Assembly (NCBI RefSeq): GCF_965363235.1
Contig: NC_134846.1
Location: forward strand, 77,536,724 to 77,600,723
Direction: 5' to 3'
DNA from: Mytilus galloprovincialis
Taxonomy: Eukaryota; Mollusca; Bivalvia; Mytilida; Mytilidae
Length of the DNA: 64,000 nucleotides
The position numbers and the translations under genes were made by a program. Below the pieces are notes generated by a model. That model searched no databases and was not told the origin of the DNA. It saw nothing but the letters and a program-made list of their open reading frames with translations. Of the stretch, positions 1,646 to 64,000 are shown one piece after another. Position 1 is the stretch's first letter; every line of letters starts with the position of its first letter.

Positions 1646-2366
1646 ACTATATTTATAATAAAGTATCTCTCTTCTTTAATCTATACCAGTAGACCCCAAT
1701 TACATTGTATTTGGAAGTAATACATGATCTACATAGAATAACTGCAATATGGTTTTGGAAAACAAGTGCTCTCTGCATCATAGAGCTGTTTTTAGACTTC
1801 TGAAGGTTTTGGAGAAAGAAAACAAACACAGGATACAAAATGATACTCGCAAGTGAGTATGTAATTTTTAATTTAAGATAATGTACATCACTTCAAAAAT
1901 TTAGTTTAATCTACAATTACAATAATGTAGATTTGTTTATAAAACAGTGTATTTTTCAAAATCTACAGTGAATTCTTTTCACCAAACATCTAAATATAAT
2001 AAATCATACATAAGTTTTGGATCATCTGTAACACTTCATGTCTGCCTACTACATTTCTCAGTATGATGACCTTGAGGTGATTAGGTCTGGATTTGGACAT
2101 GAAATGTTTTACATCTACTGAAAACTAGTATTGTACTTAAAAATTTTGTTTCACATGTTTTAAAAGCATATCCTTAATTGGAAATGAAAAGTAATCATCT
2201 TTTAAGAGGTTTACCCAATGAAAAGGTTCATTTATACAGCTCCCTTAAATATCACTTTCTACATTTTCAACCCCTTTAAAACAAATTTGCCTGTCATGAA
2301 ATCAGTTATCATGTATACCAAAAAATGTCTTGTAAAAATAAGTTTAACAGTATCTATCTAGAAACA

Positions 2367-8629: not shown

Positions 8630-8809
8630 TTACAACCGGTATCCACCAACACTTAAAGATCGTGAAATCTGTGTGTGACATATAGGACAGTTCATTGCTT
8701 TGGACGAACATGTATCACATAACACTCGATGACTACACGGTAGGGGGGAACTACTTTTCATCTTGTCCTGACATAAAGCACACCGGACACTCTGCTGATA
8801 AAGGATCAT
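8630..8809 (-). CDS. unk: unk coding exon 16 (RING finger and stop)
   Basis: Acceptor TTTTAG; 60 codons including TAA at 8632-8630. It encodes QQSVRCALCQDKMKSS, then PLPCSHRVLCDTC and MNCPICHTQISRSLS. The RING is C-x2-C, C-x-H-x3-C-x2-C, C-x2-C, the compressed form typical of UNK/UNKL rather than a standard RING-HC. Ligase activity has been questioned for this family. Confidence 0.97.
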   Translation of the reverse strand: MILYQQSVRCALCQDKMKSSSPLPCSHRVLCDTCSSKAMNCPICHTQISRSLSVGGYRL

Positions 8810-20800: not shown

Positions 20801-23800
20801 AATCGCAGCTTACCACCCAAAATTGATGACAAGTTGAATGATTTTCTTCCAGATTTGCTGCTTATTTGGACGTGTATTACATGAACACTTTTTGTTTATA
20901 GGATCAATCGTGCATTGGTGAGTTGATAGGTATTTTATCTTTTGATATTAGATTTGATTTTTATTTACTTATTTCCTGTCTTATTTTTTATTGAAATGTT
21001 CACGTCAGTATCATCCTTTCTTTACTTTCAGCATTGTCCAAATTACTATTCATGTCCATATATTTAAGAAAACATTTATTGACCGAATATTTTGCTTCAT
21101 AAAGGGGGCGGTATGTTCTTTTTTGAGTATATTAACTATTTACTTTTCAACGCCATCACCCAAATGTTTTTGTTTAAATTAACACCAGGGGCGGATCCAG
21201 TCATTTTAAAAAGGGGGGTTCCAACTATATGTCCCCATTCAAATACATTGATCGGCCAACAAAAAAGGGGGTTCCAACCCCCGGACCCCCCCTGGGATCC
21301 GCCAATGAGCACTATTAACGATATTTGGAAAATCAGGAATCATTCAAAACATTAATTTGTCATCTGCTTGACCATAATAATTTTTTTCTCATATAATTTG
21401 GGACCAAAATATCTATTTTAGGAGAAAATACCCCCCACTATTGAAGTTAAATGTCTAATCCCTTAGTGTACTGATGTGAATAGTAATTAACTGGAAATGT
21501 TTGAAAAAAAAGATATTGATGTTGTTCAATAAAAAGACGAGAAATAAGTCGGTGAACCAAAAAGTTCAAATCTAATTGAAAGATAAAGTGCCCATGAACT
21601 CACTGAGCATGCACGAGTGATTCTATTCATAAAAAGTGTCCGTGTAACAACTAAAAAGAGTCCGTGTATCGTCTAAAAAGAGTCCGTGTAACACCCGTTA
21701 ATGTACTGTTTTTCTATAGCTCTGCGGGGGGCAAAGTCGTACAACAAAGTTTAACCTTATATAGTTTATTGACTAAATGCACATTTATACCCCAATGGGA
21801 TTGAAGGCTAGTCGTACTAGTCATGATCAGCTGTCTTTACTTTTTCGTCGTACTTCTAGTCATTCTAAAGCTCGCGCAGTCAGTATGATTTTTTAAATCG
21901 ATGTTGTATTATTTCCGAAGTTTAAAGGAGGTCTCCAAATGGGAATCCGGGAAATGACTGATAAAAATAAAACAAAAAATAGTTAAAGAAGACTAAATCG
22001 TGGTTTGATTATACATGTATGTAAATCGATTAAATTTCTATTCTGGTAAATCGACCAAGAGCCTCAAAACTAAAACACAATACTGTCAATCATTCCACAT
22101 CAAATTTAATCATGAATGAATTTTCCCACGGTCGGTCAGTAAGGTCACCTGTGTTTACTGTTACGACATTTCCCGCCATATAAAAATCTCGTGCAGTGGA
22201 CAAAATCGATCTTTAATATCTTTTATTAGCATTCAATATTATTGCGAGTGGAGTCAAGTTAAAGTTCAACCACGTGCACACGCTGTTGATCACTGATATG
22301 TGTATCATGGAATTGTCTTTTCACGGCAATTTTTTCTTTTAGATTGCTATAAAAAATATAACATACAAGTTTCCTTTTTTACATGGATTGTGCGTAAATT
22401 GATATTATGCAATTAAGTTCGGGATTTCGGGATTAACCCTTTCGGGATCTGGGAATTCTTTTTTCGCGATGTCGGGATTTAAATTTATTTAAATTCGGGA
22501 CCTTGGGACTTCGTGTTTTTAAGCCCGGGATTTCGAGATCCGGACCTATTTTACCCCCTACCCCAAATGCAGATCAATTATATTAATTTAGCATAATGAA
22601 CAAACACGGAAATCTTAAAATAAACTTATGCCCGGGAAGAATCAATATTTTCTTCTAGTGTTATTATATGCGTTCTATTTTAGTCATAGTCATCACCAAC
22701 TTTCGGACAATATTTGTTTACAGTAAAAAGTAAAAACTACAAAGAATCATCAAGCTACTAATAATATACAAGTGTTGCTCACTGTAATTTATTTTTATCT
22801 CCGAACTGACACAACAGACTGAATATTAAATACAAATTATAGAAATATTTTGCATGTGACCGCGTCAAACTAAAACGTATGCAGCAGCACTTGAGACAGC
22901 ATTCTGCTAATCAATGGATTTACGTGGAAAATAAATCAGTAAAATAAAAATAACCGTAAGCTTCAAGAAATAGAATACATGTAAAAATATATTGTTTAAA
23001 AAATTTATGCAAACAAATAAGAAAAAGATCCAAAAAAAACAAAAAAAAAAAAACGAAAAGGAACATAAAATAAAAATAATTTTTAGGAACAAAGAAAATA
23101 AATATTAACAGTTGAAATATCAAAACCATAATTAACAAAAATAGGCTATTTTTATTAAACAAAGTTTTCTCCAGTACTTCACCTGTAAAAATATTTTATG
23201 TCAAATACGATGTAGAACTAATATAATCAATAAAGTGACTGAGAGGTTAAAATTACAGGTAATCTGATTCTGGAATCAGTGAACCGTAATTCTAGCAACA
23301 CCGATTAAGATGAAAGGACCATTCACACCTGGATCTGTTGTTTAATGAACATACTACCTACCATAAAAATGTCGGATTATTCAAATCCGACTAGACGGAT
23401 TAAGGCATCCATAAAAATAAGTCCCTACCCGTACTGTATACTAAGTTTCAAGTTGATTGGACTTCAACTTCATCAAAAACTACCTTGACCAAAAACTTTA
23501 ACCTGAAATTTGCACTATCATTTTCTATGTTCAGTGAACCGTAAAATTGGGGTCAAAACTCTAATTTGGCATTTAAATTAGAAAGATCATATCATAGGGC
23601 ACATGTATACTAAGTTTCAAGTTGATTGGACTTCAACTTCATCAAAAACTACCTTGACCAAAAACTTTAACCTGAAATTTGCACTATCATTTTCTATGTT
23701 CAGTGAACCGTAAAATTGGGGTCAAAACTCTAATTTGGCATTTAAATTAGAAAGATCATATCATAGGGCACATGTATACTAAGTTTCAAGTTGATTGGAC

Positions 23801-26800
23801 TTCAACTTCATCAAAAACTACCTTGACCAAAAACTTTAACCTGAAGCCAAAAACTTTAACCTGAAATTTGCACTATCATTTTCTATGTTCAGTGAACCGT
23901 AAAATTGGGGTCAAAACTCTAATTTGGCATTTAAATTAGAAAGATCATATCATAGGGCACATGTATACTAAGTTTCAAGTTGATTGGACTTCAACTTCAT
24001 CAAAAACTACCTTGACCAAAAACTTTAACCTGAAATTTGCACTATCATTTTCTATGTTCAGTGAACCGTAAAATTGGGGTCAAAACTCTAATTTGGCATT
24101 TAAATTAGAAAGATCATATCATAGGGCACATGTATACTAAGTTTCAAGTTGATTGGACTTCAACTTCATCAAAAACTACCTTGACCAAAAACTTTAACCT
24201 GAAGCCAAAAACTTTAACCTGAAATTTGCACTATCATTTTCTATGTTCAGTGAACCGTAAAATTGGGGTCAAAACTCTAATTTGGCATTTAAATTAGAAA
24301 GATCATATCATAGGGCACATGTATACTAAGTTTCAAGTTGATTGGACTTCAACTTCATCAAAAACTACCTTGACCAAAAACTTTAACCTGAAGCCAAAAA
24401 CTTTAACCTGACATGGGACAGACGGACGAACGGACGAACGAACAGACGAACGAACAGACGGACGAACAGACCAGAAAACATAATGCCCCTACTACTATCG
24501 TAGACGGGGCATAAAAATAGAAAACTCTACAACGATTTATTTTCACAGATACTTTATTTCATGTTAAGTACTTTTTCATGTTAAGTACTTTTAAGCTGTT
24601 AACTATCAATATTTTCAAATTCGTCTTGGTGTGTTTTTCTTAAGAAAGAATCAGATGTGAAGAAATATTGTAAATCATGAGCAAAAGGAGGTAAAATTTA
24701 GTTTCCCCAATATTTTTTGAAGCCTCTCTAGGGTATGATAGGATATCTTCACAGATTTGATGTATACCAGGTTTTGTCTTCTGTCACTATGATACTCTGG
24801 ATGTATAAGAATTTACTGCTTACCTGTGAATCTTCTCTCTCTGAACCAGGTGCTCTTGGATAAAATCCTAGTCCTAGTCCAGAATCTGATGTTATGCTGC
24901 TTGATGTACTACTAGATCTACCTTTACCTATAGGTTCAGGTAATGGACTACTTGTATGGCTAGGTATACTGCTTGATATACTACTGTTATTCTGTAAATC
25001 AAAGGAGTAACTTCGATAAGATCCTAAAATGGCCATTTCTGGCTAAAATTTGAAATAAGGATTAATTTACCAAAGCAAAATAGATCAAATCATCAAGCTA
25101 CATAAATTTCTGAAGAAACAGACAGTTTTTGAGAAAATGCACAAATTTAACCTTACAACATCCTTATAACATGTATTTTCTTGATGATGTCAATAAAAGC
25201 ACAAATCTATCACCAGGTCCGAGTACACAGTTATTTCGTAGTGCATTTCTTTTAGACAATAAATGAAAATTAAAAAAATCCAACCTGCGCTTTCTCAATA
25301 ATATTTTTACAGTGTGTTGTACTACTTTTGGGACAAATTATATCAAAGTTATAGAAAACTTCATCAGCTCTAACTCAAAATATGGACAAAATTGTGTTAA
25401 GGGGGGCTTGAAATCTTTTGACAGCTTCCGAAGTGCTAATTTTTGACCTTTTTCAGCTGGACCTAATCACTACTTTACATTAATATTTATGACCCAAATT
25501 GTTTTAGTGTCATTTCACCCCCCAACTTGCTATATGAGGCATAAAACATAGAGAAATAAATTTGGAAGGGGTATAACAAAAATTGGCAAGTAACACACTG
25601 TCCACACTAAGGACTATATTCGTGGACAACGAAAATCAAAGGACGATAACTGTGTACTCGGACCACCAAAACAGAATGTCTTTCCACATTTCATGTTGGA
25701 ATGAGGGAATCTCAAATCCAGTTACTTTTCCAAATGTATTTAATGACACAATTTTGAACATTGACATTTAAATTGATAGATTTTAACTTACACAATTATA
25801 TGGTACACTATTAGCTCTTTCCTTTCCAATAGGATCTGGAAACTTCCACTGGCTTGAACCATTGAGATCCTATAAATAATTAAATATTCTTCAGTGTGCA
25901 TTATGTAACTTCTGTTCAATTCAATTCAAATATTATTCAATGTCAATTTGTGTTAACTTCAAAGCTTAAATTATGAACTTCAGTCTTCAGTCAAGTGAAG
26001 TCCACACATTAACTGGACCGAATGTCTGCTAATGCATGGAAGACCTTTGGAATAACTGACAGTTACAGGATTTTTTAATTGAATTTTACCAGAGCTATAG
26101 ATATATATACATACATAAGAAATATGAATATTAATGATAAAATAAGTTTATTCCACAGTTAACACTACCTATGCTTACCACTTTTTGATTAATTTGATTT
26201 CCCTCTGAGATAACACCATTACTACTTGTTGTTACTATGGTAATTGGGTTAATATTACTAATGGTAGGGGGAGGTAACACTGTCGAGACAAATTCAGCCA
26301 ATGAATTCTCATTACTTGAACCTACATCTCTAGCTGTTGTTATTTCATCTGAAAATAAAAATATTTTGAAAATAATTTACTTAATCCAAGCAAAAGGTTA
26401 ATTTGTAAAAGCAAAGAATACCACAATAATACAACTTAAATTCATTGTTATTATACTGTAAATTCAGAAATTATTGCGAGGTTTTTATCATTGCAAAAAT
26501 TGCGATAGAGTTGTAAACCCAATAATTTAAACTCGCATTTTAAAATGTTTTATATGAAATAAGCAGGATTTTTCCCCAAAATAGTAAAAATTAAAATCGC
26601 ATTGATGTCTAAAATGACAAAATTGCAATAATTTTTGAATTTACAATATTCATATGCATTAAAACAAAAGTAAGGAAATTAATTTAACTGTGAGCTATAA
26701 TTTGCTCATTAATGATTTCTCTGCTGTATTTCAGTAAACAGAAAATTGATAAGGGTTGGGGTGGGATAATATTGAAATAGAAAAAGAATGTGACCAAGGA

Positions 26801-29800
26801 CTTGAATCCCTGGCTCAATCTTGGAAATTTTCCAAGTTTAAAAAAAACACAACTCTTAAGTGGTAAATGACTCCTTGCCATAATTATAACTTTGTATGCG
26901 TGCTGGGTTTCTCAGCATTGTGTTTGAGTTTCATAATAGTTGGATCAGATAAACATAAGTTATAGTGCACAAGTTAGAAAGGGACATAACTAAAACAAGA
27001 ATGTGTCTATAGTACACGGATGCCCCACTCGCACTATCATTTTCTATGTTCAGTGGACCATGAAATTGGGGTCAAAACTTTAATTTGGAATCAAAATTAG
27101 AAAAATCATATCATAGGGAACATGTGTACTAAGTTTCAAGTTGATGTAACTTTAACTTCATCAAAAACTACCTTGACCAAAAACTTTAACCTGAACGTCG
27201 CACTATCATTTTCTATGTTCAGTGGACCATGAAATTGGGATCAAAACTATAATTTGGCATTAAAATTAGAAAGATCATATCATGGGGAACATGTGTACTA
27301 AGTTTCAAGTTGATTGGACTTCAACTTCTTCAAAAACTACTTTGACCAAATACATTTAACCTGAAGCAAATGGACGGACGCACAGACGAACGGAGGCACA
27401 GACCAGAAAACATAATGCCCCTCTACTATCGTAGGTGGGGCATAAAAACAGTTGATGACATAAAGTCAAAATCTAAACTAAGATTGTGTGTTGTCAGTGT
27501 TCCAGCTAGGTTTTCAAAAGGGCAGGGTGCCAATCCTGAAAAAGGGCATTTAACGCGCGATATGATAATATGAAAAGGGCATATTTTAATAAAAGATGTT
27601 AATCAAACATTTGTGTTTATTCGTTGAATCACAGGTTATACAAGAACAACATCTTTAGCCCATATAGAACTCTGTCTTTCTACTTTTAAGGCTGAAAAAC
27701 TTGTCAAGCAGCTTGTCACACAAGTTTTTTTATCATTGCTTGGCACAGTTGAACTTTATATGCAGTACGTTTTGAAAGGAGATCTGTTTCATACTGTTTC
27801 TATGGTCTACCACATTTTACCAGTTTCACCTTTCTACTTCTGCTGTGCTTGATGGCAATACAGCACAAAACAGCTGTGCTCAGTAAATTCACAATTTTAG
27901 GATATAAAGCAACAGTGAAAAATAATATCAAAAATAAAGAATACAGAAAAAGATGACCAAGGCACCCTACCAACACTGCTACTAAGACCCTCTTTAACTT
28001 TTCCCATAACTCAAAATAAATACCTAAACATATATATTCTTAAGCAAGAAGTATGGAGACACATTTTAGAATATGTAAATGGGTTACTCAATGCTAGGAA
28101 AAAAATCAGATTGAGTTATCTTTCTTTATTCGGGTGTGCTCCTTCTTTGGAGGATTATAAACAGTACGTAAATATGATGTAAATATGATCACAATATGGC
28201 GGCCGATTTTGTTATTTTCATATCAAAAATGAAGGCAGTCAATGACAAATACGTCTGAATTTTCTGTTTATTTTACAGAAAACAAGTAAAACAATGTCTT
28301 CAACGAGTTTATAATGGTTTTCCAACTTTCTGTCATTACGTTTCTTCCATGAAACTACGGTAAACATCGCAAATTGTGCCCAAGTTGTTGTATGCACATT
28401 TCTTCAAAGATAATTGCCGACTGACCGATTCTATTTGAACGAATTAATGTTGATGATCATTAATGACCCATCCGATAAACGGATTACCTATAACAACAGA
28501 TTATGACACCAGTTGTAACCATTGATAAGCTTGGGGTGGTAAACAAAGTCATAATCTTTTCCCCAGGTAAAATTTAGTAATTAGCGTATCATATCAATAC
28601 GCAAATTAATATGCAATCGATCTTCAAAGAAGGCAGGGGGCCCTGGAAACTGTAAAAAGGGCACAGGGCGCCACTCGGAAAAGGGCGGGCGCCGCGCCCT
28701 CTGAAAACGGCCTAGCTGGAACACTGGTTGTGATTTTAAAAAATTGTGTTTGAATTTTTATAAAATTTGCATGAAAGAGCAGAAACTATTTTTTTTTGGC
28801 CATTAATATCCAAATTAAAAACTCAAAACAGTGTGTGAGTGAATGAAAGTGGATGGACTTAAGGTTGGTCAAGGTTAATGGCCCCTATTGCCTTTGGGAG
28901 ATTGGCATAAACAAATCTTTATATACCCCAAAAATAAAGGTAAATCAGTGTTTGAGCATCAGTTGAAGAGTATACTTGATTTTATCACAATGATACATAC
29001 TCAGATTTCAAGCGATGGAAATGAACAAATACAAATAGCCACAAGTTTTATACGAAATAAATACAATGAATGGTTTTGAATAAATATTTTTTCAAGTTTT
29101 ATAACTTAATTTCTCCTTCTCACTATAAATCATCACTTTGTGTATCAAATCATAGCAAATTAAAAGCAAACAATCCCCTCATAAACTAATGCCCTTATTC
29201 ACCTAAATTGTTTACATTGTTTTCAGTATGTTACATAATGTTAATTTACAATTTAAATGCATAGCTTGGCAATTATTTGATTAACTGGCTTCCTTGAGAA
29301 CTTTATTGCATGTAAACATGTGTGCAGGTAAACAATTTTCCTTGAATTTTATCCTAGCAGTATAGCCATTTTTAATTTTCTTAGGTCTAGGACTCCGATA
29401 GTCACAAAGGGGATCACTTTTTTTATCCACTTAAACCATCTGAGAGACACATGTATGTTTATGACAGACTGGGGCAAAATATCTTTTTTTAATTGCATAG
29501 TTCTTTAAAATTGTCAATAGATAGAAAATGCTTTATTTTCCAGCATGTAATCACAAGTTTTGGATTGAATGACCCACTAGATACAAGTTCAATTTATTCC
29601 CCAACTACACTTACTTATAATCAATAGTAAATTAAAGATTGCTAATAATTGAATTGTATACATGTACATCACAATATATATACATCACAATACATGTACT
29701 TGAAAGGTCATCATAACCATTATAAATCTACTTCCTGAATAAACAATAAAGTCACATATAAATAATAACAGTATGACCATTAATTCTACATTTCATGAAA

Positions 29801-32800
29801 TCATGTTCCAAGCAATTGCAACGTATGTCAGACAAAGCCTTTTTATGCCAGAGCTATATGACAATAATACATAATGACTTCAAAACAATGAAATGAGAAT
29901 AAAATATTGAAAGTGACATTTTCTGAACTGGTCTTATTTGCTTTCATCAATTCAGTCTATATTGCGAAGGAACTGATGCATTTAACATAAAAATAAGAAG
30001 ATGTGGTATAATTGCAGGAAACTCTCCACCCTGGACCAATTGACATAAAAGTTTACAGCTATAGTTCACCGTACAATCTTCAACAATGAGCAAAACACAT
30101 ACCATATAGTGAGCTGTAAAATGTAAAATAATTCAAATAAGAAAACTAACAGCCTGAACGATGTACATTTTTTGGGGGTACCAAAAATGAAAGCCTTAAA
30201 GGCATACATACATTTGTATCTGTACTTACTTTCAACATGGGCAAAGGCACAGAAAGGTCCTCTAGGGCAGTGGTTAGTTTGTACCATGTCATTACATTTT
30301 GTTGATTTATAAATCTGAAATAGACATGTTAGACTTAGTATTCTTGTACACTCATGTACAATGTACACTGTGGCTAAAATATGACTTGCTTTTCAGTCTG
30401 TCGATGGTTGTGGGTAATAAATTGCAATAATTTTCTTCATAAAACCTTTGGTATCTTCTTAGGTATTAAGTTTATTAACTATAATTGGTTACTTTAAGGC
30501 ATATATTCAAATTTGTATAGACAAGAATGTTACAGTAAGTTCTAAATTTATAACATGAGTATGAGCTTTTCCTTCAGAAACATTCAAGGGTCAGGTCCTT
30601 AGAAAAGGTTATTTCTGTAAAACTCGGCACAAGTTATTGAATATGTTTTTAAATCTGATGTATTGTAAATGTGGCTTTATTAATTTCCAAGAAACAATGC
30701 CTATTCAAATCAAATGATGAAAATTCTATGGCGAATACTGCATTTTGATTGTTGAACTCATAGTTTTTGTTTTTTCACAGAGCAAATTTAAGAAACAAGA
30801 TTTTACCTCTGGGTGAAACTGTTGTTCTGTACGTGTATGACAGTAAGCACAGTTATCTCCATTTTCACACTGTGTTGGATCACTCCAATCATCTCCATGT
30901 TTAACATTAGGGCAAGGTGTAGACCTGCAAAACAATTAATTATAATTTCTTATATACAATGATACAGTCTCTGATATACATGTACTAGTATGGATTAATT
31001 ATATTTCCCAATTATAACCAGTGATTTGCTGTTGTTGCAAAATGTTGTCTATTCAGATCAATAAAACATTTGTAAGGCTGTTTTTGCTGATTATATGATT
31101 TTCTTTGTATAAACTTTTACTGTAATCTCAACATAAATAGACACATGCAAACATGAAATACTGGTAACTATAATTTTATAATTTGTATTAGTGTATTTTC
31201 GTTGTGAAAATTCCCACTGAAGTTACATGTAGTTTAAATTTAAACTGCCTCAGTCTCAAGATCATCAATTGATCAAATATAAATTGATCCTTGTAAATGT
31301 CATCTTGAGGTTATAACACCAATCAGAATTATACAATAAATCAATTTTCAAGTTCATTTTCACAGCAAACATTTCTTAATTTTTTTAACAAATTCTATTT
31401 GAATTTCACCAGTAAGTTGAGAAAAACATAATTGCGCCAATATATACATGATATATATATATATATACCTATTTTTTTTTCTAGTTGCAAAAGAAAGTTT
31501 TTAAGTCAAGACCAAATACATCATGAAAAGATTTTCAAAATTTTACCACAGGTTTCACTGATCTAACCAAACCACAAAGCATAACCAAAATAAACAGCTG
31601 CACCATGATACATACGCCTGTCGCTTTCAATAACTTCTCAATGTCATATCAGTAATTCTTGAAAAAATTACAAATACAAACCATGCATAAAAGTTTCATG
31701 ATATTACCAATGTTATTTCAACTGATTGGGCAGAGCTTTTGTTTTAATTTGCACAAGAACAGTCTATTTGAATATCAGTGTTACCAAACGCATATACAAA
31801 AGAACTAAGTGTATGATAAGAACCAATAACTGGACACTTCATTGATGAGTTTATCCCAAAACACCTGTCTATAGATGGACTGGTCTTAAATAAGGGACCA
31901 TCACTCATAAACCCTGCCCAGTCAAGTGAAATAAAATCACATAATACCAAAAACGTAAAATCTAAAATTGATAAAAATCAAAAGGTAGCTTATGTCAATA
32001 AATATAAACAATTCAACAAAGTTTCTTGACGATTGGTGAGTGTTTTGGGAAAATCCCCCTCATCAAATGAAAAAAAAAAAAAAAAAACTTGCGAACTTAA
32101 AATTGAAAATAATCAAAAACGAATGGGAGCTTACATCAATAGATATTAACAATTCAACAAAGTTTCATACATTTATGAGTTAATGTGACATGTTGATGAT
32201 GGACAGACGGGCAATGGTATACCATAATATGTCCTGTAAACGGGCATATAAATAATCCTCATTTAAAAAATGTTGGTTTGTTTCTGAATAGCACCATACA
32301 ATATAATAAGACATTAACTTAGAGATCATACTGCTATCAATGCTTACAAAGTGATACCCCAAGCCCTAAAAATTTGGTTTATTATATAGGGAATCACTGA
32401 AGCATGACAGGAGCCCCCGCCCCCCTCCTTATGAAAAGTTCTGGATCAGACACTGTTCTTGGTGATTCAAAATGTACAATTGTATAGAAAGACAAGTGGT
32501 GAAATGTCATCCAAATAATTAGAAAAATAAACTAACTGAAAACAGTTAAGATGCAGATCTGTAAAGTCCCCTCAAGCTGGCAAAGTATAACCAGATGCTC
32601 CGCAGGGCACAGCTTTATACGACTGCAGAGGTTGAACCCTGAACGGTTGGGGCAAGTATGGACACAACATTCAAGCTGGATTTAGCTCTAAATTTGGATT
32701 GTGATTAAATAGTTGACACAGCATAGGTTTCTGACACAGAAATGAATATGGTCTAATGAATACAAAATTTTTTTTTGCCTTTGAGCAATTCACTATGCTG

Positions 32801-35800
32801 TTGAATATTAATCCTCTCAAAAAAATGTTTGAAGAAATTTTCTTTTTATTTATGAAATCTGAAATGAGAAAAATTTAACACCCCCCCCCCCCCATTTTTT
32901 TTTTCTCATCCCCCTTTCCCTTTTTCCAAAACTGATCTCAATTCAAATTTCTAATGGAGTTTGCAACAATAACTACTCATTTAAATACATCATAAAATAT
33001 TAAAATGTAAAATAAAGTGCTTGTTATCACTGAATGGTAAAGATTGTTTTAATTTATCAGTTGGTAGTAACAGTGAATATACATTGTATATATGTTGTGT
33101 ACAAGTTATCATTTTGTACAAAAATATTGTACAAATTATAATTTGTATTTTGACTTTGTACAAATTATAATTTGTACAAAACGTGCCTGTACAAATTACA
33201 ATTTGTACAAAATTTGACCAAAATTCACTTATAACTTGTACAACAGTTTTAAATACGAATTTTGGTGAAAAATGCAATGATTAACACGATATATTGTATA
33301 AAACAATGATTTAAGTTGATTCAACTACTATTCTGGTCAAAGAAAGATAACTCCAATTGAAAATTTCTTGCTATTGCACAATATTGTGCAATTATATATT
33401 ACTTGCTATTGCGCAATACTGTGCAATTGAAAATATTTGCTATTGCACAATACTGTGCAATTGAAGATTTCTTGCTATTGCGCAATACTGTGCAATTGAA
33501 AATTTCTTGCTATTACACAATACTGTGCAATTGAAGATTTCTTGCTATTGCTGAATACTGTGCAATTGAAAATTTCTTGCTATTGCACAATACTTAATAT
33601 AATAATTTTGGATCCTGATTTGAACCAACTTGAAAACTGGGCCCATAATCAAAAATCTAAGTACATGTTTACATTCAGCATATAAAAAAGCCCAAGAATT
33701 CAATTTTTGTTAAGATCAAACTTAGTTTAATTTTTGACCCTTTGGACTTTAATGTATACCAATTTGAAAACCGGACCAAAAATTAAGAATCTACATACAC
33801 AGTTAGATTTGGCATATCAAAGAACCCCAATTATTCAATTTTTGATGAAATCAAACAAAGTTTAATTTTGGACCCCGATTTAGACCAACTTGAAAACTGG
33901 GCCAATAATCAAAAATCTAAGTACATTTTTAGATTCAGCATATCAAAGAACCCCAAGGATTCAATTTTTGTTAAAATCAAACTAAGTTTAATTTTGGACC
34001 CTTTGGACCTTAATAAGACCAATATGAAAAATTAAGAATCTACATACACAGTTAGAATCGGCATATCAAAGAACCCCAATTATTCAATTTTTGATGAAAT
34101 CAAACAAAGTTCAATTTTGGACCCTTTGGGCCCCTTATTCCTAAACTGTTGGGACTAAAACTCTCAAAATCAAACCCAACCTTCCTTTTATGGTCATAAA
34201 CCTTGTGTTTAAATTTCATAGATTTCTATTTACTTATACTAAAGTTATGGTGCGAAAACCAAGAATACTGCTTATTTGGGCCCCTTTTTGGCCCCTAATT
34301 CCTAAACTGTTTGGACCTCAACTCCCAAAATCAATCCCAACCTTCCTTTTGTGGTCATGAACCTTGTGTTTAAATTTCATTGATTTCTATTAACTTATAC
34401 TAAAGTTATTGTGCGAAAACCAAGAATAATGCTTATTTGGGCCCCTTTTTGGCCCCTAATTCCTTAACTGTTGGAACCAAAACTCCCAAAATCAATCCCA
34501 ACCTTCCTTTTGTAGTCATAAACCTTGTGTAAAAATTTCATAGATTTCTATTTACTTAAACTTAAGTTATAGTGCGAAAACCAAGAATACTGCTTATTTG
34601 GGCCCCTTTTTGGCCCCTGATTCCTAAAATGTTGGGACCAAAACTCCCAAAATCAATCCCAACCTTCCTTATGTGGTCATAAACCTTGTGTTAAAATTTC
34701 ATAGATTTCTATTCATTTTTACTAAAGTTAGAGTGCGAAAACTAAAAGTATTCGGACGACGACGATGCAATGTGATACCAATATACTACCAAAAAAATTT
34801 TCATTTTTTGCGGTCGTATAAAAACTCTCATACAATGCTGTATGATTGTAATAGTTTGATTCTAGATATGTAAATGTATGTACTCTTATTCTCCAGTGAA
34901 CAATCATTCATTTTTTTTCTTATAAAAATAGCCAATTATTGTTTTGTAGTTGCAAACAATTCATCTTTCATTTTTGCTTCTTATTAAAATACAGTCAATT
35001 GTTTTGAAGGTGTTTTAGATTTGTTTATTTTACAATTTATCAAAAAGTGAAATATTTAGGTTAATTATGTTTTAATACATAAACAAACACAACCAAAGAT
35101 TACTAAAAAGTATAATTATACATAAGTTATTATTTAAAGGTAAAGGTGCCTTCACAGGTAAAATCTTTCTGTCCAAATTCATATATCATTTATGACATTG
35201 TTCAGGTTCCTACAGGCATAGACAAAATTACATCTTGAGTCAGTCTGACTTTTTTGGCTAAAGTATAGTATCTAATTTATTCAAAAACCTAAAAGTGAAT
35301 CTATTATCAAGGTCACAAATCAAGATCAGCGAAAGTTTATCAACTTATATCTTATTGTCCTTTGCCATGGTAAAAAATTTGGTCAACTCATACTTTGTAG
35401 AAAAAGATTTATAAACAAAACATACATGTAAGGGCAGTCTGCACCAAAAACTTTTTCAACTACTAGTCCAAGACCAATATTCTGACATTTTTCTTATTGC
35501 TCCAGACAAAGTTTTGCAAAAACTTACTAGTCCTAATGAAATTTTACTAGTCTGGGGCTTCGGACTAGTGGCTAACCGTGCAGACTGTAAGGGACCATTT
35601 CAAAAGACTCGTTTTCATTGCCTGAAAGGTTGAAATAAGTAATGGTGTGCCAGACACAATTTTTGATTTAGTGGATATATATTCTTTCCACGAAATAAAC
35701 AAAATTAAATCCTCCACGGAAATTTCTGCTTCTACAGGTACAGTATGTCACTTTTCTAAAATCACATATTTCACAAATTATATAAGTGAATTGTGCAATA

Positions 35801-54542: not shown

Positions 54543-57500
54543 GTAAGATCCGATTCAAAACACATATCTTTGGCTCGAAAATTTATCTCAATGGGGGTTT
54601 TAGTGCACGAATGTATGCGATTTGTAAGGTAAACAACTTTTTTTGTGGTGCATTTGCGAGAAGGAAGAATTCAGGTATGTTCTGGGGTTGGAATTCCCCC
54701 TTTTAGATTGCCAACTAATACGTTTGTCTAGGGACATACATGTATGTTTGAATACCCCCTTTTTATATGTGTAGTATGGTTTTGAAATCTCCATTATTTA
54801 AAACAGCGTGATTTGTGCATGCGTACAATTACCTTAATTTGATAACTGCTATGAGGGTGGTAGGTTATTTTCGTGCAACGTGATCGACGTTTTTTATTTC
54901 ACTTTCATCGTGTTTTTACTTTTTTATTTCACGTTCAGTCGTGCAAGACGGGTGCCTCATTCAATGTGTTCTGCTTTTTTTAATTTTACATGCATCGTGA
55001 TTTTCAAAGTCTTATTTTGCGTGCTCGGTATTTTTCAAATAAAATTCAAACACTTGGCAGGGTTCGTCAAGAAATACTTTTTTAAAAGCCGTAAACCAAT
55101 TATATCATAAATATGTATACTAAATCGGGATTATCAAGTAAAACAAAGAGTTAATATATACAAGAAGACAGTGACTCAGTCACAAAAGGTTCACATAAAA
55201 GTATTTATTTTTCGTGCAACGTTCATTAAACAGGTTGGGAACAAACCCCCTGTATGGTGATTATACCTGTATAGAGGGATAATCCTTCTTTAGAGGGTAA
55301 AAATTATCCCTCTATAGAGGGGTATTTTTGTTTGCACTGGATTTAAAGCAAATTAGGGCAGAATGGCATTTTCTAGTTATATTGGCTATAATCTCTAGCA
55401 TTATATGCATCAACATATGCACTTTACTAAAAATTGGGATAACCAGTTTTCTGCTAAAGTGACAAAACTTGCAATCTATTGTATACCTATCTGAACACCT
55501 GATTAACAACAAAAGGAATAGTTGACCTTTAAATTTCATGTTAAATCTAACAATAGAAATTCTGTTCAGTGAGGCATAAGTGAGTAGAATTTACCTGATC
55601 ATCACAGCTTTCAATCATGGTTGACAATAGATTTTATATTTAGTCAGATAAGCATCAAACTGGGCATGTGCATATTAAATTAAGTACATCAATTGGTGCA
55701 TCAACTGTTCCAGGTTACTGCCATAATAAGAAGAGAATGCCATTCTGCCCTAATTTGCTTTAAATCCAGTGCAAACAAAAATACCCCTCTATAGAGGGAT
55801 AATTTTTACCCTCTAAAGAAGGATTATCCCTCTATAAAGGTATAATCACCATATAGGGGGTTTGTTCCCAACCTGTTAAAGAAACTATTTCACGTTCAAC
55901 GTGAAATTATGTCTTATTTCACGTTTTTTCATGCTAGCCCCCCCCCTTTACCACCCTCTGCTATCATGTCTATGTCATTTTGTCTCTGGTGGAGAGTTGT
56001 CCCATAGGCCAGTCTGGGATATGGTTTTCAGAGGAATCTGTCATGTGACTTTAATATGAGGCAGACATTACCTGTTAATGGGGACGAAGTCTGTATGAAT
56101 TATTTTTTTTTTTCAACATGTAAAATAAAAGAAACGGGAATACCGTAACGTTTCCGATTTGGATCTGTTGTTAGGGATTTAGTTGTGATGTTATTTAAGT
56201 TATGATGTCATATTCAATGTAAACAAAGAAACGCTTTCATCAGGTAATGTTTTATTCATATCAAACAATTACTAAAAATGAATTGGGCCAAAATAAAAAG
56301 ATTGTATGTTTGCCCAAACGCGACCGACCCAAAATAAACCTGCCGACTCAAATTCTTTTTTTGACGTTTTTTGGAAGAATTTTTTTTCTTTCGGATTTAT
56401 TTTGGGTCCGCTCCGTCATCGTACAAAACTTAATGTTTGTCGTCTTTGCGTTTGAAAGTAACTGTGAATAAGATTAAAAGAAAGCGTATAAGAGACGCAG
56501 TTAATCGATATTCGATGTTCTCTGTTTTTATTTTCTGATTTAACGAACGTAAAGAAGTAAAACATGTGAAGTGGCACAGTTTTTATACGACCGCAAATTT
56601 TGAAAAAATTTTCGTCGTATATTGCTATCACGTTGGCGTCGTCGTCGTCGTCGTCGTCCGGCGTCCGAATACTTTTAGTTTTCGCACTCTAACTTTAGTA
56701 TAAGTAAATAGAAATCTATGAAATTTAAACACAAGGTTTATGACCATAAAAGAAAGGTTGGGTTTGATTTTGGGAGTTTTGGTCCCAACATAATAAGGGG
56801 CCCAAAGGGTCCAAAATTAAACTTTTGTTTGATTTCATCAAAATTGAATAATTGGGGTTCTTTGATATGCTGAATCTAACTGTCATGACTGTGTATGTAG
56901 ATTCTTAACTTTTGGTCCCGTTTTCAAATTGGTCTACATTAAGGTCCAAAGGGTCCAAAATTAAACTTAGTTTGATTTTGACAAAAAATGAATCAGTTAG
57001 GTTCTTTGATATGCTGAATCTAAAAATGTACTTAGATTCTTGATTATTGGCCCAGTTTTCAAGTTGGTCCAAATCGGGGTCCAAAATTAAACTTTGTTTG
57101 ATTTCATCAAAAATTGAATAAATGGGGTTCTTTGATATACCAAATCTAACTGTGTATGTAGATTCTTCATTTTTGGTCCTGTTTTCAAATTGGTCTACAC
57201 TAAAGTCCAAAGGGTCCAAAATTAAACTTAGTCTGATTTTAACAAAAATTGAAATCTTGAAGTTCTTTGATATGCTGAATTCAAAAATGTACTTAGATTT
57301 TTTATTATGGGCCCAGTTTTCAAGTTGGTCCAAATCAGGATCTAAAATTATTATATTAAGTATTGTGCAATAGCAAGTCTTTTCAATTGCACAGTACATT
57401 GCGCAATGGCAAGAAATATCTAATTGCACAATATTGTGAAATATCAAAAAAAAAATTAATTAGAGTTATCTTTCTTTGTCCAGAATAGTAAGCAAGAAAT

Positions 57501-60500
57501 ATCTAATTGCAAAATATTGTGCAATAGCAAGATTTTTTTTTAATTGGAGTTATCTTTCTTTGTCCAGAATCAACTTAAATCTTTGTTATATACAATATAC
57601 AATGTATATTCACTTTTTACTACCAACTGATAAATTAAAATAATCTTTACCATTCAGTGATAACAAGCAGTTTTTTTACATCTTAATATTTTATGATGTA
57701 TTTAAATGAGTAGTTATTGTTGCAAACTCCATTAGAAATTTTAATTGAGATTAGTTTTGGAATAAGGGAAAGGGGGATGTGATTAAAAAAATTGGGTTCA
57801 ATTTTTCTCATTTGAAATTTCATAAATAAAAAAGAAAATTTCTTCAAACATTTTTTTGAGAGGATTAATATTCAACAGCATAGTGAATTGCTCTAAGAGA
57901 AACAAAAATTTTAAGTTCATTAGAACACATTCATTCTGTGTCAGAAACCTATGCTGTGTCAACTATTTAATCACAATCCAAATTTAGAGCTGAATCCAGC
58001 TTGAATGTTGTGTCCATACTTGCCCTAACCGTTCAGGGTTCAACCTCTGCGGTCGTATAAAGCTACGCCCTGCGGAGCATCTGGTTTTATGCTGTAGTTG
58101 TTTGTACTACCAAACCCTTACCTATATGCTCAATGTTAATTTCATCGTGTTATCGAATATCTGATAAGAATATTCAGGTAGATTTGTTCAAAACCATGTG
58201 CAATCGAATATTTTCAATGTTATTCTGACAGGAAATGGATCCGGAAGTTGCGAATTTACAATCTTGCAAGAAGATTTTGTTTTTACTTAATAAAAAGGAA
58301 TTATTTCTTGATAAATTGTTGTCTTTAATTATAATTTTCCTTTATCATGTAAATTAGATGCCCTTTTATTCAAATAGTTCAAATTTACAAGTCTCATTAG
58401 ACAGTCAGTACGTTGCTGTTTGGGAGAATTTGATAAAACTATAATTGCTCACAGAATCAGAAATATAATCTTAACTGAATGTAACTCCTTCTGAATAATT
58501 TATTGCAATATAAATATAAATCCCTTTTGACAAGAGAAATCTGACTTTTGTCAGAAATATTTTTTCACATGTGCAAAAGTAAAAACATGCTATGGATGCC
58601 ATATTGGATTTTTATACAATTTGTGAGGTAGCCTCTAGAACCATGACCTGAAAATAAAGTCTTCAGAAAACGTTAACTTTATGCAATTATATTTTATCAA
58701 TAATGATTATTTTCAAAAATTTAAACTTGATTATTTAAAGAAATAAAATTATAACAAATACGTTTTTAGTTTGGAGATTCTACAGAACATGCTTTGATCT
58801 ATTTATAGCCAAATTAGTTTACCTGTGTGATAATGTAAAATATAAATTTGTTTTCAAAACATGAAAAAGACACAAACTAAGGATGGTAGATAATAATTCA
58901 TATAAAAATTTAATCTATTTTAATAGAAATAGGATTTAAAAACTGCAAGCAAATTTAATCATTACATAATCAGCTGATATTTTTTTTACACAAACATCGT
59001 GTTGATGGAACTGTTGAAAATCACTTCACAAATCCAACAGCCCTTTCACACAGTTAGCAATTGTCAGGGTTATAAACATCTCAGGATACAAATCATATAG
59101 TAGACTAATTTATTTATAGAGGTTTTAAATTCATGGCTTTTGGTTGTCTCTACAAAGGTTTGACAGAGAAAAAAAAGATATACTGTTTTAAGATCTTTTA
59201 ATATTTTCATGCAAATTCGGATAAAAAAAAAAAAAAAAAAGAATTTGCCTACCTACCTACCCACACCTAGTCATCATGGGTCGGGTTTGGGCAAACTGAA
59301 ATATTTTTAATTGTGGCCTTAGTATGGAGTGCCAATCCCAAATTTTACTAGAATGATAAATATATATTTTATTCAAACTCTCATCCAAACAAGACCAGAA
59401 AAGGACGTAAATTTCTGCGCAAATGCAGGGATTTGAAAAAGTCTGAAATAATTAATTATTTAAAATATCAGACCGAAGGCTCATATTAAGAGTTCATTGG
59501 TTCATCTGATGGTGCCCTTGACCTCATTTACATGGTTTATTGGTAACAGTCTTCACGCTTAAGTTTTGAGTCCAGAAGCCCAATTTTTGGAAAATTTTAG
59601 TTGGATTTTGTTGGCTTGTAGAGGAGAATTTTACAAGCCCAAAAGCAATTTTACATGCCAATGCCGTAGGACTTGTGGTTAAGCGTGAAGACTGTGGTAA
59701 TGTTGAGTTTATATGTGATTCACCAGACTTTAAACATAAATTGAATCATGATATTAAAGTAAAACGGGTCAACCATTTCAGTGTGTGCACTCTTGTTTCT
59801 TAATAATTTTTTAAACAAGTTTTCTTATCTCATTCATGTCATTAGGCCTTGAAGGCTCAAATTTAGTAACATGTTGCTATTTTGTCTACCTTGGTGTTCT
59901 CTGATTTTAAAAGAATATGTAATATATGTGATGCTATAGTTTTAGGGAAAGCAGTGCTATTTTCAAACCTCATGGTCGTATCTGAAATTTCTATGGAAAA
60001 CAATAGACCACTTTTGAGTTCATCCTTCACTGGAAAAAAGTCAATTATGCAAGGCACTTACCAGATAGACAGGATCACCTGTATCCCTGCACTTTTAACG
60101 TTCATTAAGTGTACTAGTGATCGTCATTGTGCAGTATAAACTAGAAATAATGTTTGTTTTATAAGTACTTAATCACAATTCCCTAATGACAGCAGTAACG
60201 CTGATTGTCAATTATGAGAATTTAATTTACCGAATAAATTATGCAATACAGAATTTTAGTTTTCCAACTACTTGTTCAACATTGGAACAGAAGTGACTAT
60301 GCCCCTACATTGTAAACGCATGAATGATGTTCACTAAAACCAGAGTTTTTGACGAAAATGCATCGAACTCGAAAGTTGTCTATTGCATTATGCCTCTGCC
60401 ACTTCTAAGGAAAAAAAATACTACAAGATTTTGCTTTATATACATTTGTACATGTACATTTGTATATGTAAGCATAATTTGTTACTTTTTTCAATCATGT

Positions 60501-62648
60501 ACAATTATGTTTGTTTCACTTTTTTTTTCATTTTTGCAGGAGATTGGCCCTGAAAGTCCTGCTAACAACAGACTTAGAACAATAAGAGAGCTTAGTGAAG
60601 TGGTTCTAAATAAAAGATTAGAGGAGGTAAGAAATTCAGTACAATCACCAAGATTAAATTTGGTTGAAAAGGTATAGCAAAATATATTTGAACCAAAATT
60701 TTTTCCCAATTTCAACAGTTTTGAAATTGATCTGTTTTGTCTTAGGGTTACAAATGGAGATAAACTTAGAATGGGTAATATCTTGAATTTCTCTTTTAAT
60801 ATTTCCAGCAGATGTCTTATAAACAATATTTTGCTTTACATATCCATTTTAAAGTCAAAAGTCAAATTTCAAATATTTATATATATTTTATATTGAATAT
60901 CACTGATATTGGACATATACTTTTTCATAATGAGGTAAAGAAGGAATTGACTTCCAGATGTAAACAAGGAATATTTCAAAGACCTGAGGTGGATGACAAT
61001 TTGCTAATTGATTATAATTGGCCTTATTGTTGGTACCAAAAAAAGTTTTGGCTTTGATATGGGATTGTTTGTTACATGTTTCTATTCACTATGTCTTCTT
61101 GTACTAGATTATTGATCCACAATTGATGGTTCTTTTACAGAATGCAATTGAAGCATTATGGCATAGTATAAAAGATTTAGTACAGAGTACTTCACCATCA
61201 GAGAGTAGAATTGTTGCGTTACATTTCCTGAAATGCCTTCTAGAAGGACAGGTAAAGTGTTGTCTATAAACAATATAATTCAATTTAATATTTTGATGCT
61301 TTTAACTCAATCATAATTCATTTACTTTTATTTGCAGCTTCATTGTTTTCTGCCTCGAATCTTAAGTGTTTAAGGAAAGGAAAACATATTTAATCACTTA
61401 CTACTTACACCAACTGTTATGTGGAAAAGTTTTCCAGGTTTGCAATGCAAATGTGTATCAGAAAATATAACATGTGTTTATACTACAATGTTTTTTTTTC
61501 ATTTCTAAAATTGAATGGTTTTTTTAAATTTTATTGAGGTGTAAAATCACATCTTGTAAAATTACTAAAATGTGTACTCGCTCAACTTTTTTTATGCCCC
61601 TATAAATTTGATTAAAGAAGCATTTAATCTTATAATTACTTTCTCATGTTTCAACGTCAAAGTCATGAATTAAATCAAGCATTTTGTTTGAGATTCTATG
61701 CATTGTTTTAACATTTTCACAAAGCGCATGTGAAGTCATAGATGATGTATTTTATACTGAATGCCTTTACAAATCAAAATTACGAAATTATTTCAATATA
61801 ATTTTATTATTTGATAATAATTTTTATTATTTCCATTTTAGTATCAGTATTTAGGGATCCTTAGAGCATTCTTTTTCCATGTGATTGAAAGTTTAACCGT
61901 ACCAAGTGATACTGCATACAGGTATGTCTATAACTTTATTTTACTTCATGACAACATTATCAGTTAGAGGAGAAATTGTGACTTGTATCAATGTTTTATA
62001 TATTTAAAGAATGACTGTAAAAAAATATCTGTCTATGAAGAAATAACATCAAAAATGTGGTGCACACTGAATAACGCGTGTAGCAGGTTATTTAACAGTG
62101 TTCACCAGATTTTTTATGTTATTTCGAGTAGATAGAGAAAAAAATTACAATCATTCCTTATAATTTAATTCTAAATTCAATTTAAAAGGAGTTAATCATG
62201 AAAAAACGTTGATGATGTCAGTCATATGACAAAATAATGTCTATGAGCTGATCAACAAATTCCCTCAGCCTATCAGAAGATGTGTTACATCCAAAATTAA
62301 ACTATTACCTGATGTTCAAATCTGGTAACTTGAATATTCAAACTAAACGAAAAACATCTGAGCAAATGACATGAACTCCAAAAGAAGTGTGACAAGGCTT
62401 CAACAGGATAAGTAATTTGCAATGATTATATTTTGTAGTTTCTATTGATATGGTCACATCACTGTGTCAACATTTAATTGGCTATTTTAGGTTGGATTTG
62501 TTAACTCTGAGCGGACATGGAAGTAATTACAGTTTGTATAGACAAGTTGTATCTCTGTGTCAACATTTTATTTACTATTTTAGGTTGGACTTGTTGTTAA
62601 TCCTTAGTGAACATGGAAGAAATTTACATGAGTTTGAAGAAGATGCAG
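54408..62648 (+). CDS. TSC2: Tuberin (TSC complex subunit 2), N-terminal exons only, gene runs off the right edge
   Basis: Five plus-strand exons join in frame: 54408-54542, 60540-60626, 61141-61251, 61842-61921, 62584-62648 (alternative start 62491). They give about 159 residues of a protein that is usually ~1,800 long. Matches to vertebrate tuberin: LKDKIKNLLGFSKEKDKP, IVFTPERLR, SPANNRLRTIRELSEVVLNK, NAIEALWHSIKDLVQ, LGILRAFFFHVIESL and LILSEHGRNLHEFEEDAG. This N-terminal HEAT-like part binds TSC1 (hamartin). The C-terminal GAP that turns Rheb off and so restrains mTORC1 lies beyond the window. The start ATG at 54408 fits the family; the same frame is open back to 54,213, but that stretch is promoter-like and unlike tuberin. 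Intron 1 is 6.0 kb and holds an inverted-repeat element, a dispersed repeat copy and a MITE. Confidence 0.93.
55229..55877. mobile_element. Inverted-repeat element with 142-bp arms in TSC2 intron 1
   Basis: Left arm 55,229-55,370 (AACAGGTTGGGAACAAACCC to CAGAATGGCATT) and right arm 55,736-55,877 are complementary with only a few mismatches; the interior is ~365 bp. Each arm holds a nested palindrome ATTATCCCTCTATAGAGGG. TTAA-like flanks suggest a possible TTAA target, not certain. No ORF. Confidence 0.9.
55960..56020 (+). repeat. Fragment of mussel-type repeat tail
   Basis: GTCATTTTGTCTCTGGTGGA followed by GAGTTGTCCCATAG matches the copy at 43,225-43,265. Confidence 0.6.
56579..58086 (-). 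repeat. Family-B dispersed repeat, copy 3, reverse, ~1.5 kb
   Basis: It starts AGTTTTTATACGACCGC and ends GCGGAGCATCTGGTT, mirroring copies 1 and 2. A CGTCGTCGTCGTCGTCGTCC microsatellite lies beside the terminal hairpin. A 180-codon minus-strand ORF runs through its 120-130-bp units. It lies in TSC2 intron 1. Confidence 0.88.
58087..59540. other. TSC2 intron 1, unique-looking part; nothing recognised
   Basis: AT-rich, with no repeat family or ORF I can support apart from an A-run near 59,225. Confidence 0.4.
59547..59694. mobile_element. 148-bp MITE, CAGTC ends, 6-bp target duplication TGGTAA
   Basis: CAGTCTTCACGCTTAA at the left is perfectly inverted at the right, and TGGTAA flanks both sides. 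It shares CAGTC ends and the GGACTTGTGGTTAA text with the MITE at 35,435. Confidence 0.88.
60540..60626 (+). CDS. TSC2: TSC2 coding exon 2
   Basis: Acceptor TTGCAG, donor GTAAGA; 29 codons, phase 0. It encodes EIGPESPANNRLRTIRELSE then VVLNKRLEE. The vertebrate counterpart is the [22 protein letters not shown] region. Confidence 0.93.
61141..61251 (+). CDS. TSC2: TSC2 coding exon 3
   Basis: Acceptor TTACAG, donor GTAAAG; 37 codons, phase 0. It encodes NAIEALWHSIKDLVQSTSPS then a helix ending LHFLKCLLEGQ, like AVEALWKAVADLL and LLKAIVQGQ of vertebrate tuberin. Confidence 0.95.
61842..61921 (+). CDS. TSC2: TSC2 coding exon 4
   Basis: Acceptor TTTTAG, donor GTATGT; 80 nt. It encodes YQYLGILRAFFFHVIESLTV then PSDTAY, matching the GVLRALFFKVIKDY segment. 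Confidence 0.95.
62444..62540 (+). repeat. Upstream copy of a 93-bp tandem duplication of the TSC2 exon-5 acceptor region
   Basis: The stretch from CTGTGTCAACATTTAATTGG through the acceptor at 62489-62490 to GGACATGGAAGTAATTACA repeats, 93 bases later, as CTGTGTCAACATTTTATTTA, acceptor 62582-62583, and GAACATGGAAGAAATTTACA. The second copy keeps the tuberin reading; the first is diverged and has lost the donor. Confidence 0.85.
62584..62648 (+). CDS. TSC2: TSC2 coding exon 5 (with an alternative upstream 3' splice site at 62491)
   Basis: Acceptor TTTTAG, donor GTACAA; 65 nt. It encodes LDLLLILSEHGRNLHEFEED then AG, like [20 protein letters not shown]. A diverged copy of the acceptor and exon start lies exactly 93 nt upstream and reads in frame through to this exon, so use of the first site would add 31 residues. 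Confidence 0.92.
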
Positions 62649-62743
62649 GTACAAATATAAAAATTTGTTTAAGATTGGACAGTTGTATACATATAATGAA
62701 AAAAGTCATTGAAATGGACCAATGCTGAAACAGAGTCTCATTT

Positions 62744-64000
62744 TTAGCTCACCTGGCCCCAAGGGCCAAGTGAGCTTTTCCCATCACTTGGCGTCCGGCG
62801 TCCGGCGTCGTCGTCCGGCGTCCGTCGTCGTTAACTTTTACAAAAATCTTCTCCTCTGAAACTACTGGGCCAAATTAAACCAAATTTGGCCACAATCATC
62901 ATTGGGGTATCTAGTTTAAAAAATGTGTGGCGTGACCCGGCCAACCAACCAAGATGGCCGCCATGGCTAAAAATAGAACATAGGGGTAAAATGCAGTTTT
63001 TGGCTTATAACTCAAAAACCAAAGCATTTAGAGCAAATCTGACTGGGGTAAAATTGTTTATCAGGTCAAGATCTATCTGCCCTCAAATTTTCAGATGAAT
63101 CCGACAACCCGTTATTGGGTTGCTGCCCCTGAACTGGTAATTTTAGGGAATTTTTGCTGTTTTTGGCTATTATCTTGAATATTATTATAGATAGAGATAA
63201 ACTGTAAACAGCAATAATGTTCAGCAAAGTAAGATTTACAAATAAGTCAACATGACCAAAATGGTCAGTTGACCCCTTTAGGAGTTATTGACCTTTATAG
63301 TCAATTTTTAACCATTTTTCGTAAATCTTAGTAATCTTTTACAAAAATCTTCTCCTCTGAAACTACTGGGCCAAATTAATCCAAACTTGGCCACAATCAT
63401 CTTTGGGATATCTAGTTTAAAAAATGTGTGGCGTGACCCGACCAACCAACCAAGATGGCCGCCATGGCTAAAAATAGAACATAGGGGTAAAATGCAGTTT
63501 TTGGCTTATAACTCAAAAACCAAAGCATTTAGAGCAAATCTGACATGTGGTAAAAGTGTTTATCAGGTCAAGATCTATCTGTCCTGAAATTTTCAGATGA
63601 ATCATACAACCTGTTGTTGGGTTGCTGCCCCTGAATTGGTAATTTTAAAGAAATTTTGCTGTTTTTGGTTATTATCTTGAATATTATTATAGATAGAGAT
63701 AAACTGTAAACAGCAATAATGTTCAGCAAAGTAAGATTTACAAATAAGTCATAATGACCAAAATGGTCAGTAGACCCCTGAAGGAGTTATTGCCCTTAAT
63801 AGTCAATTTTTAACCATTTTTTCATAAATCTTAGTTATCTTTTACAAAAATCTTCTTCTCTGAAACTACTGGGCCAAATTAAACTAAACTTGGCCACAAT
63901 CATCATTTGGGTAACTTGTTTAAAAAATGTGTGGCGTGACCTGGCCAATCAACCAAAATGGCTGCCACGGCCAATAATAGAACATAGGGGTAAAATGCAG
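62744..64000 (+). repeat. Family-C dispersed repeat with ~502-bp tandem units, cut by the window end
   Basis: It opens with the hairpin AGCTCACCTGGCCC / GGGCCAAGTGAGCT, then a GGCGTCCGGCGTCGTCGTCC microsatellite. Units starting TACAAAAATCTTCTCCTCTG follow at about 62,839, 63,341 and 63,843. ORFs inside (AAFRANLTGVK-type text) come from the repeat. Confidence 0.88.

Follow-up and report, generated by a model that had tools for sequence, protein, structure and literature searches.

The DNA considered here, a stretch of 64,000 nucleotides from Mytilus galloprovincialis that is referred to as the window, harbors several families of repeats that share one architecture and yet appear unrelated in sequence, which raises the question of what kind of machinery has dispersed them. 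An earlier note on this DNA had described the common arrangement as a terminal hairpin, a GC-rich short tandem repeat and an array of long units, had pointed to Helentrons, and had suggested a single mobilizing machinery that is indifferent to its cargo. We consider, with a probability of about 0.9, that families A, B and C belong to the HINEs, the non-autonomous members of the rolling-circle Helentrons, whose ends are recognized by an autonomous Helentron protein, and that family C arose by shortening of a Helentron type of around 17.3 kb.

Anatomy of the three families

The window contains three copies of family A, three of family B and one of family C. Their common layout begins on the left with a T-run, which is followed by a palindrome starting with A, a CpG-rich short repeat and an array of long units; on the right it comprises a subterminal inverted repeat, a hairpin and the sequence CTNGTT. 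In family A, a complete copy on the forward strand (10323..11166) displays the left hairpin ATGCCCC..GGGGCAT, CGTC/CGTT repeats, units of 169 and 189 bp and the right end GTGGGGCAT..CTTGTT. A reverse-strand copy (18464..24512) is split by a 4.67-kb TIR element into a right part (18464-18765) and a left part (23437-24512), and a short reverse-strand copy (26994..27443) has both ends present. The family B copy at 2366..4465, on the reverse strand, consists of the left hairpin ATACGAC..GTCGTAT, GACGAC repeats, units of 120-165 bp, a non-repeated 3' part and the right end TGCGGTCGTATAAAGC..CTGGTT; a second reverse-strand copy (32589..34819) has a mutated left hairpin arm, and a third, on the forward strand (56585..58086), has both ends. 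The left layouts of hairpin, short repeat and long units, recovered for both families as the earlier note had them, start at 10323 (+), 24512 (-) and 27443 (-) in family A and at 56585 (+), 4465 (-) and, with the mutated arm, 34819 (-) in family B.

Families A, B and C have no mutual match in a self-BLAST of the window. A scan for a T-run, a perfect 7-nt palindrome and a CpG short repeat found six places in the window, all of them in A, B or C and all reading TTTTTA, as against none in 60 simulated windows (order-1 Markov); because the scan was written after the families had been seen, it tests chance and not independence. One architecture in unrelated sequences is thus borne out for these three families. 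Palindromes of any kind after T-runs number 31 in the window, nine of them being one motif repeated within family A arrays, compared with a simulated mean of 9.4. Family E and an array at 48.6 kb, which had been put forward as further members, account for none of these 31, and family E, with its arms TGCCCC/GGGGCA plus ACAGACGGAC, does not, by eye, end in CTNGTT; neither is retained here.

The right ends read GTGGGGCATCCGTGTACTATGGACACATTCTTGTT in family A, TGCGGTCGTATAAAGC..CTGGTT in family B and GGTGAGCGACACAGGCTCTTTAGAGCCTCTAGTT in family C. The left-end sequence recurs in inverted form about 33 nt before the right end, perfectly paired over 9 bp in A, 14 bp in B and 8 bp in C, the repeats of A and C being shorter than the published 11-15; these subterminal sequences differ from family to family. 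The left palindromes fold far better than shuffled sequences (z -5.0 for C, -5.4 for A and -5.1 for B), with the typical family C palindrome folding at -13 kcal/mol. For the hairpins on the right, the energies speak less strongly (z -2.7 in C, -1.9 in B and -0.02 in A). The 3' palindrome is clear in C, moderate in B and, by energy, no better than shuffles in A. The canonical Helitron features, which are a 5' TC, a 3' CTRR and insertion between A and T, were not found in A, B or C, whose left ends start with A, whose right ends are CTNGTT and whose targets are T-rich.

Other repeats are also found in the window. The element nested in the second family A copy spans 4,671 bp (18766-23436), has TIRs of about 50 bp (92% over 50) that begin CAGTAC, shows a TA duplication at its site and lacks open frames of at least 110 aa; it looks like a non-coding Tc1/mariner-like element. 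A 33-bp minisatellite of about 45 copies occupies 52357-53854. An inverted pair of 165 bp with 94.5% identity (55222-55386 and 55720-55883, some 330 bp apart) is likely a MITE with long arms. Finally, the second family B copy includes a 131-bp self-complementary stretch of the TTGTACAAATTATAATTTG type (33120-33250) that, by eye, is missing in the other two.

Family C and its insertion sites

The single family C copy of the window lies on the forward strand. Its insertion point is the TTTTT at 62741..62745, directly followed by the left terminal palindrome AGCTCACCTGGCCC..GGGCCAAGTGAGCT (62746..62776), a CpG-rich short tandem repeat (GGCGTCC/GTCGTC, or GTCCGGC/GTC as first described) at 62790..62831, and an array of units of about 502 bp (spacings of 501-503) from 62832 to 64000. 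All three components are where they had been claimed to be. The array is cut by the window end, and the copy, when fetched from the genome (L009), extends 547 bp past base 64000 to the right end GGTGAGCGACACAGGCTCTTTAGAGCCTCTAGTT. Just upstream lie four exons of a host gene, a tuberin (TSC2) homologue (60540..62648, forward strand). Joined and translated, these exons match residues 56-167 of tuberin (9ce3_A, E 2.7e-20). Because the tuberin-matching exons end just before the element, family C has probably inserted into an intron of this gene, in the same direction as the gene. Within the host-gene region, 62458-62531 is a partial duplicate of 62551-62628 with 82% identity.

In the 1.38-Gb assembly (331 contigs), family C occurs elsewhere in at least 40 places on 13 contigs, these being the places scored among 9,813 first-look candidates, with the window's own copy excluded. 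The query of 1,257 bp is covered in full, apart from one match that begins at base 26, with an identity of 94-97%. Twenty stretches were fetched, one of which (L019) stops short of the left end; the hairpin forms the left end in all 19 that reach it, with one changed base in two. CTAGTT closes the element in 18 fetched copies, whereas the first right end met in L022 lies at L022:4772. Genome-wide, the 34-mer of the right end, GGTGAGCGACACAGGCTCTTTAGAGCCTCTAGTT, has 5,082 exact matches and its reversed control has none. The typical length is about 1.8 kb (1.79-1.83 kb), and mutual identity is 97.5% among 15 copies; the same 15 of the 19 underlie the identities between family C and its partner given below. 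The short repeats and arrays differ in length between copies. The C hairpin has no match in a scan of viral contigs.

In 17 of 18 copies the hairpin comes after a run of five or more Ts, the run being exactly five long in 16. When the flanks of family C copies were joined, four of 18 gave a match spanning the junction, and the empty sites of three of these (L013, L017 and L025; L021 was left aside) are T-rich and lack a target duplication. The relatives of L013 read TTCTT rather than TTTTT, while the empty sites of L017 and L025 carry longer T-runs. The TTTTT at 62741..62745 is therefore probably the host T-run that served as the target, although it is possibly derived in part from the element. 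One copy of the autonomous element described below (c10) sits inside a C array, for which the window itself, at 63255-63377, supplies the empty site, ungapped and with 94% of 123 columns identical; of the three autonomous copies tried, this one was clean, one had gaps and one had no match. A family A copy within another array has an empty site that fits to within one T, again without a target duplication. A two-sided empty site was not found for family B.

These observations bear on two explanations that do without a Helentron. Inverted subterminal motifs at both ends could suggest TIR transposons or MITEs moved by a cut-and-paste transposase, as the pearl elements were first named, but the ends are asymmetric, target duplications are absent at all five empty sites (three of C, one of the autonomous element and one of A), and C ends are found on elements encoding a Rep and a helicase, so that we consider this very improbable. 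Still more remote is the idea that the families are convergent satellite arrays, with hairpins and short repeats arising as by-products of array instability: the variation in array and short-repeat length would be in keeping with it, whereas the sharp, identical ends of dispersed copies in unrelated flanks, the existence of empty sites and the thousands of exact right ends are not. The hairpins at the ends and the T-rich, duplication-free targets instead agree with the Helentron relation that had been proposed.

An autonomous element with the ends of family C

The PF14214 profile has 138 matches in the genome, many of them within frames of 2,000-3,100 aa, and four Rep representatives were fetched. 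The Rep element at C2:32.8 Mb ends in ..TCTAAGGTGAGCGACACAGGGTCCTTGGACCCTCTAGTT. This right end is present in all four windows that reach it, from five copies fetched, and similarity between copies ceases there. Upstream, similarity among three copies begins at TTTTTAGCTCACCTGGCCC and continues into the short repeat and 502-bp array of family C. The extents set by both ends are C1:130081293-130098570, C10:34551659-34569121 and C13:65962975-65980273, or about 17.3-17.5 kb. The autonomous Rep/helicase element with matching ends that the earlier note had sought is thus found for family C, in the form of an element of about 17.3 kb with a Rep/helicase frame of about 2,650 aa.

In the C2 frame, Helitron_like_N, DUF6570 and PIF1 score above cut-off, and there is a Herpes_teg_N match at the N-terminus. 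The C-terminal endonuclease (Exo_endo_phos) matches are weak (E 0.0005 and 0.002, below the Pfam cut-off); the sister protein of L031 has an endonuclease match at the same C-terminal place with E 1.9e-9. By eye, the Rep region contains HIH, and MGDFN and SDH are found at the C-terminus. As judged from its predicted domains, the partner combines a Rep (HUH), a Pif1 helicase and an endonuclease in one protein, as Helentrons do. At least four diverged Rep proteins, with identities of 28-42%, coexist in the genome, the C2 protein being 41% identical to that of L031 over 1,853 columns and 28-30% identical to those of L032 and L029.

Family C and the partner have identical left hairpins, and over the left 1.6 kb two partner copies share 92% identity with family C, a third copy 84%. 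The short repeat and the 502-bp array of family C look inherited from the parent, since both are also at the partner's left end. On the right, 30 of the 34 terminal bases and 40 of the last 60 are equal, with GGTGAGCGACACAGG and CCTCTAGTT common to both; the partner, too, closes with this subterminal repeat, a hairpin that pairs, and CTAGTT. The right hairpins, GGCTCTTTAGAGCC in family C and GGGTCCTTGGACCC in the partner, differ at two stem pairs, each altered on both sides so that pairing is kept, which is a single comparison and not a covariation statistic. Two partner copies on different contigs (L030 and L049, at C2:32808548 and C3:100591013) are identical over their last 657 bp and have different right flanks, so that the partner has likely moved recently.

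The association between these ends and one type of Rep was followed on contigs C1-C6. The exact partner-type right end has 170 matches in the genome (reversed control, none), and its positions on these contigs were listed in full, giving 99 rows. Of 67 Rep rows on the same contigs, 63 were typed, the other four being further pieces of typed Reps; type was judged by the match range on the Pfam profile (positions from about 70 on), not by a tree. Twenty of the 63 are of the partner type, and 14 of these are followed on their own strand, at a distance of 6.5-7.8 kb, by an exact partner-type end. On reading, two of the six misses carry this end with one changed base, which brings the total to 16 of 20, as against 0 of 43 for the other Rep types (exact ends; mutated ends were read only for the partner type). 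The remaining four lack an exact end up to 10 kb away, and on C1-C6 no partner-type end lies on the opposite strand within 10 kb of any Rep. Across the genome, where the partner-type Rep has 33 matches, 29 ends stand in a partner context; 23 of them are preceded by a partner-type Rep at a distance of 3-10 kb, and none has one on the wrong side. The hairpin core GTCCTTGGAC is found in 27 of the 29, and one- or two-base variants of it in the other two; the core of the HINE, CTCTTTAGAG, is found in none.

For families A and B no partners were found, and all 11 right ends of A in the fetched loci and the window follow an A array. For the Rep types of L029, L031 and L032, the 2.5-6.8 kb followed beyond the frame held no acceptable end; L029 does have a hairpin with CTTGTT there, but it was rejected as an element end because similarity between copies continues past it. 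Downstream of the Helentron frame in L031/L046 (reverse strand), exon-like stretches resemble, by eye, an RPA/OB-fold protein. The 5' region of the autonomous Helentron also holds an array of units of about 160 bp (L036, reverse strand, oriented 1503-2771; L038; L034; L033), which in L036 begins TTTTTATGGCCC..GCCAT, has an ATTCCG short repeat and carries a family A element nested inside; this array could represent a further HINE family or else a second array native to the Helentron. Further arrays lie downstream of other Rep frames, in L047 at 841-3501 (885-900-bp units) and in L032 at 7925-9999 (units of about 358 bp), their place being given relative to the frame only, as element right ends were not found there.

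Mobilization, origin of the arrays and known systems

In the mechanism that we propose, a Helentron protein with HUH Rep, Pif1 helicase and endonuclease domains would recognize both ends of an element, namely the left palindrome, the sequence of which recurs inverted near the right end, and the right hairpin followed by CTNGTT. The enzyme would then nick and peel off one strand, which would be joined at a T-run without target duplication. The partner enzyme would act on family C in trans, and families A and B would be mobilized by partners of their own.

How far this machinery is indifferent to sequence is the point on which the original proposal stands only in part. The families do share HINE anatomy and family C does have an autonomous partner; C ends, however, go with one Rep type, and the supposed cargo is already present in the parent. 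That a single Helentron enzyme mobilizes A, B, C and others by hairpin shape and CpG-rich repeat, in any sequence, would account for the layout, T-rich target and CTNGTT end common to the three, and the hairpins of C and its partner, which differ in sequence and yet pair, do imply some freedom. It is nevertheless improbable given the confinement of the C end to one Rep type on C1-C6, the family-specific subterminal sequences and the coexistence of several diverged Rep proteins. Somewhat less doubtful, if still unlikely, is that the ancestor of family C was a sister type of Helentron, lost or not found, with the reported type a relative unable to move it. The identity of 92% rather than 99% favors this, and, as the HINE hairpin is absent from all partner-context ends, the founder of C may indeed derive from a sister type; the shared left hairpin and right-terminal motifs, and the recent look of the partner copies, speak against it. 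We keep to the partner as the parent type of family C, while noting that, with an identity below 95% and differing hairpins, there may be, or may once have been, a sister type closer to it. A more tentative extension, which we would not yet favor over its negation, is that arrays belong natively to autonomous Helentrons, in which they have a working role, and are not captured cargo, with HINEs being internal deletions that keep the left end with its array and the right end, whose hairpin is read by shape. In the partner type the 502-bp array does lie directly behind the left hairpin, the arrays behind the frames of L047 and L032 add two further Rep types with long units of their own, and native arrays, if real, would explain why dispersed bivalve satellites occur in Helentron frames.

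The significance of these findings lies in the matched pair. Non-autonomous Helentrons are known to disperse satellite-like repeats in bivalve genomes, as described in 2020 for an oyster, in the parts of that study drawn on here, without an autonomous relative (PMC7492417). With family C and its thousands of exact right ends on one side and a defined Rep type on the other, it becomes directly testable whether mobilization occurs in trans, how ends are recognized and where the arrays come from, and for family C the pair favors an array inherited from a parent element over one that was freely captured.

Among known systems, the mussel repeats are of a kind already described in oyster. In the published sections drawn on here, the Cg_HINE elements of Crassostrea gigas have the same layout, with a left subTIR and inverted repeat, a GTCY-like microsatellite, a satellite-like array, and a right subTIR and palindrome; they likewise have T-rich targets without duplication and form several families, some of them unrelated in sequence (PMC7492417). 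In its layout and its units of about 169 bp, family A fits the bivalve pearl type (CvA, CvE, CvG; PMC7492417, PMC11136912). As far as the same parts of the literature go, HINE targets in general are T-rich and duplication-free (PMC4067079; PMC7492417), and HINE/DINE-1 elements and Helentrons resemble A, B and C in their palindromic subTIRs, 3' hairpin, boundary T-run and TT or T-rich target (Thomas 2014, PMC4067079). The non-autonomous copies also outnumber their Rep/helicase/endonuclease partner in both cases, but those partners are more than 95% (Culex) or 98% (DINE-1) identical to their HINEs, compared with 92% for family C and a hairpin that is changed but still paired, and in family C, unlike in HINE/DINE-1, the long-unit array is also found in the autonomous element (PMC4067079). 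In the oyster, no relation could be established between the HINEs and ten autonomous elements from Repbase (Vojvoda Zeljko 2020, PMC7492417), and a limited literature search, confined to portions of the sources, found no autonomous partner of a bivalve HINE. What appears to be new, and what sets the mussel apart from the Cg_HINE system as presented in those portions (PMC7492417), is the assignment of a putative autonomous partner to family C.
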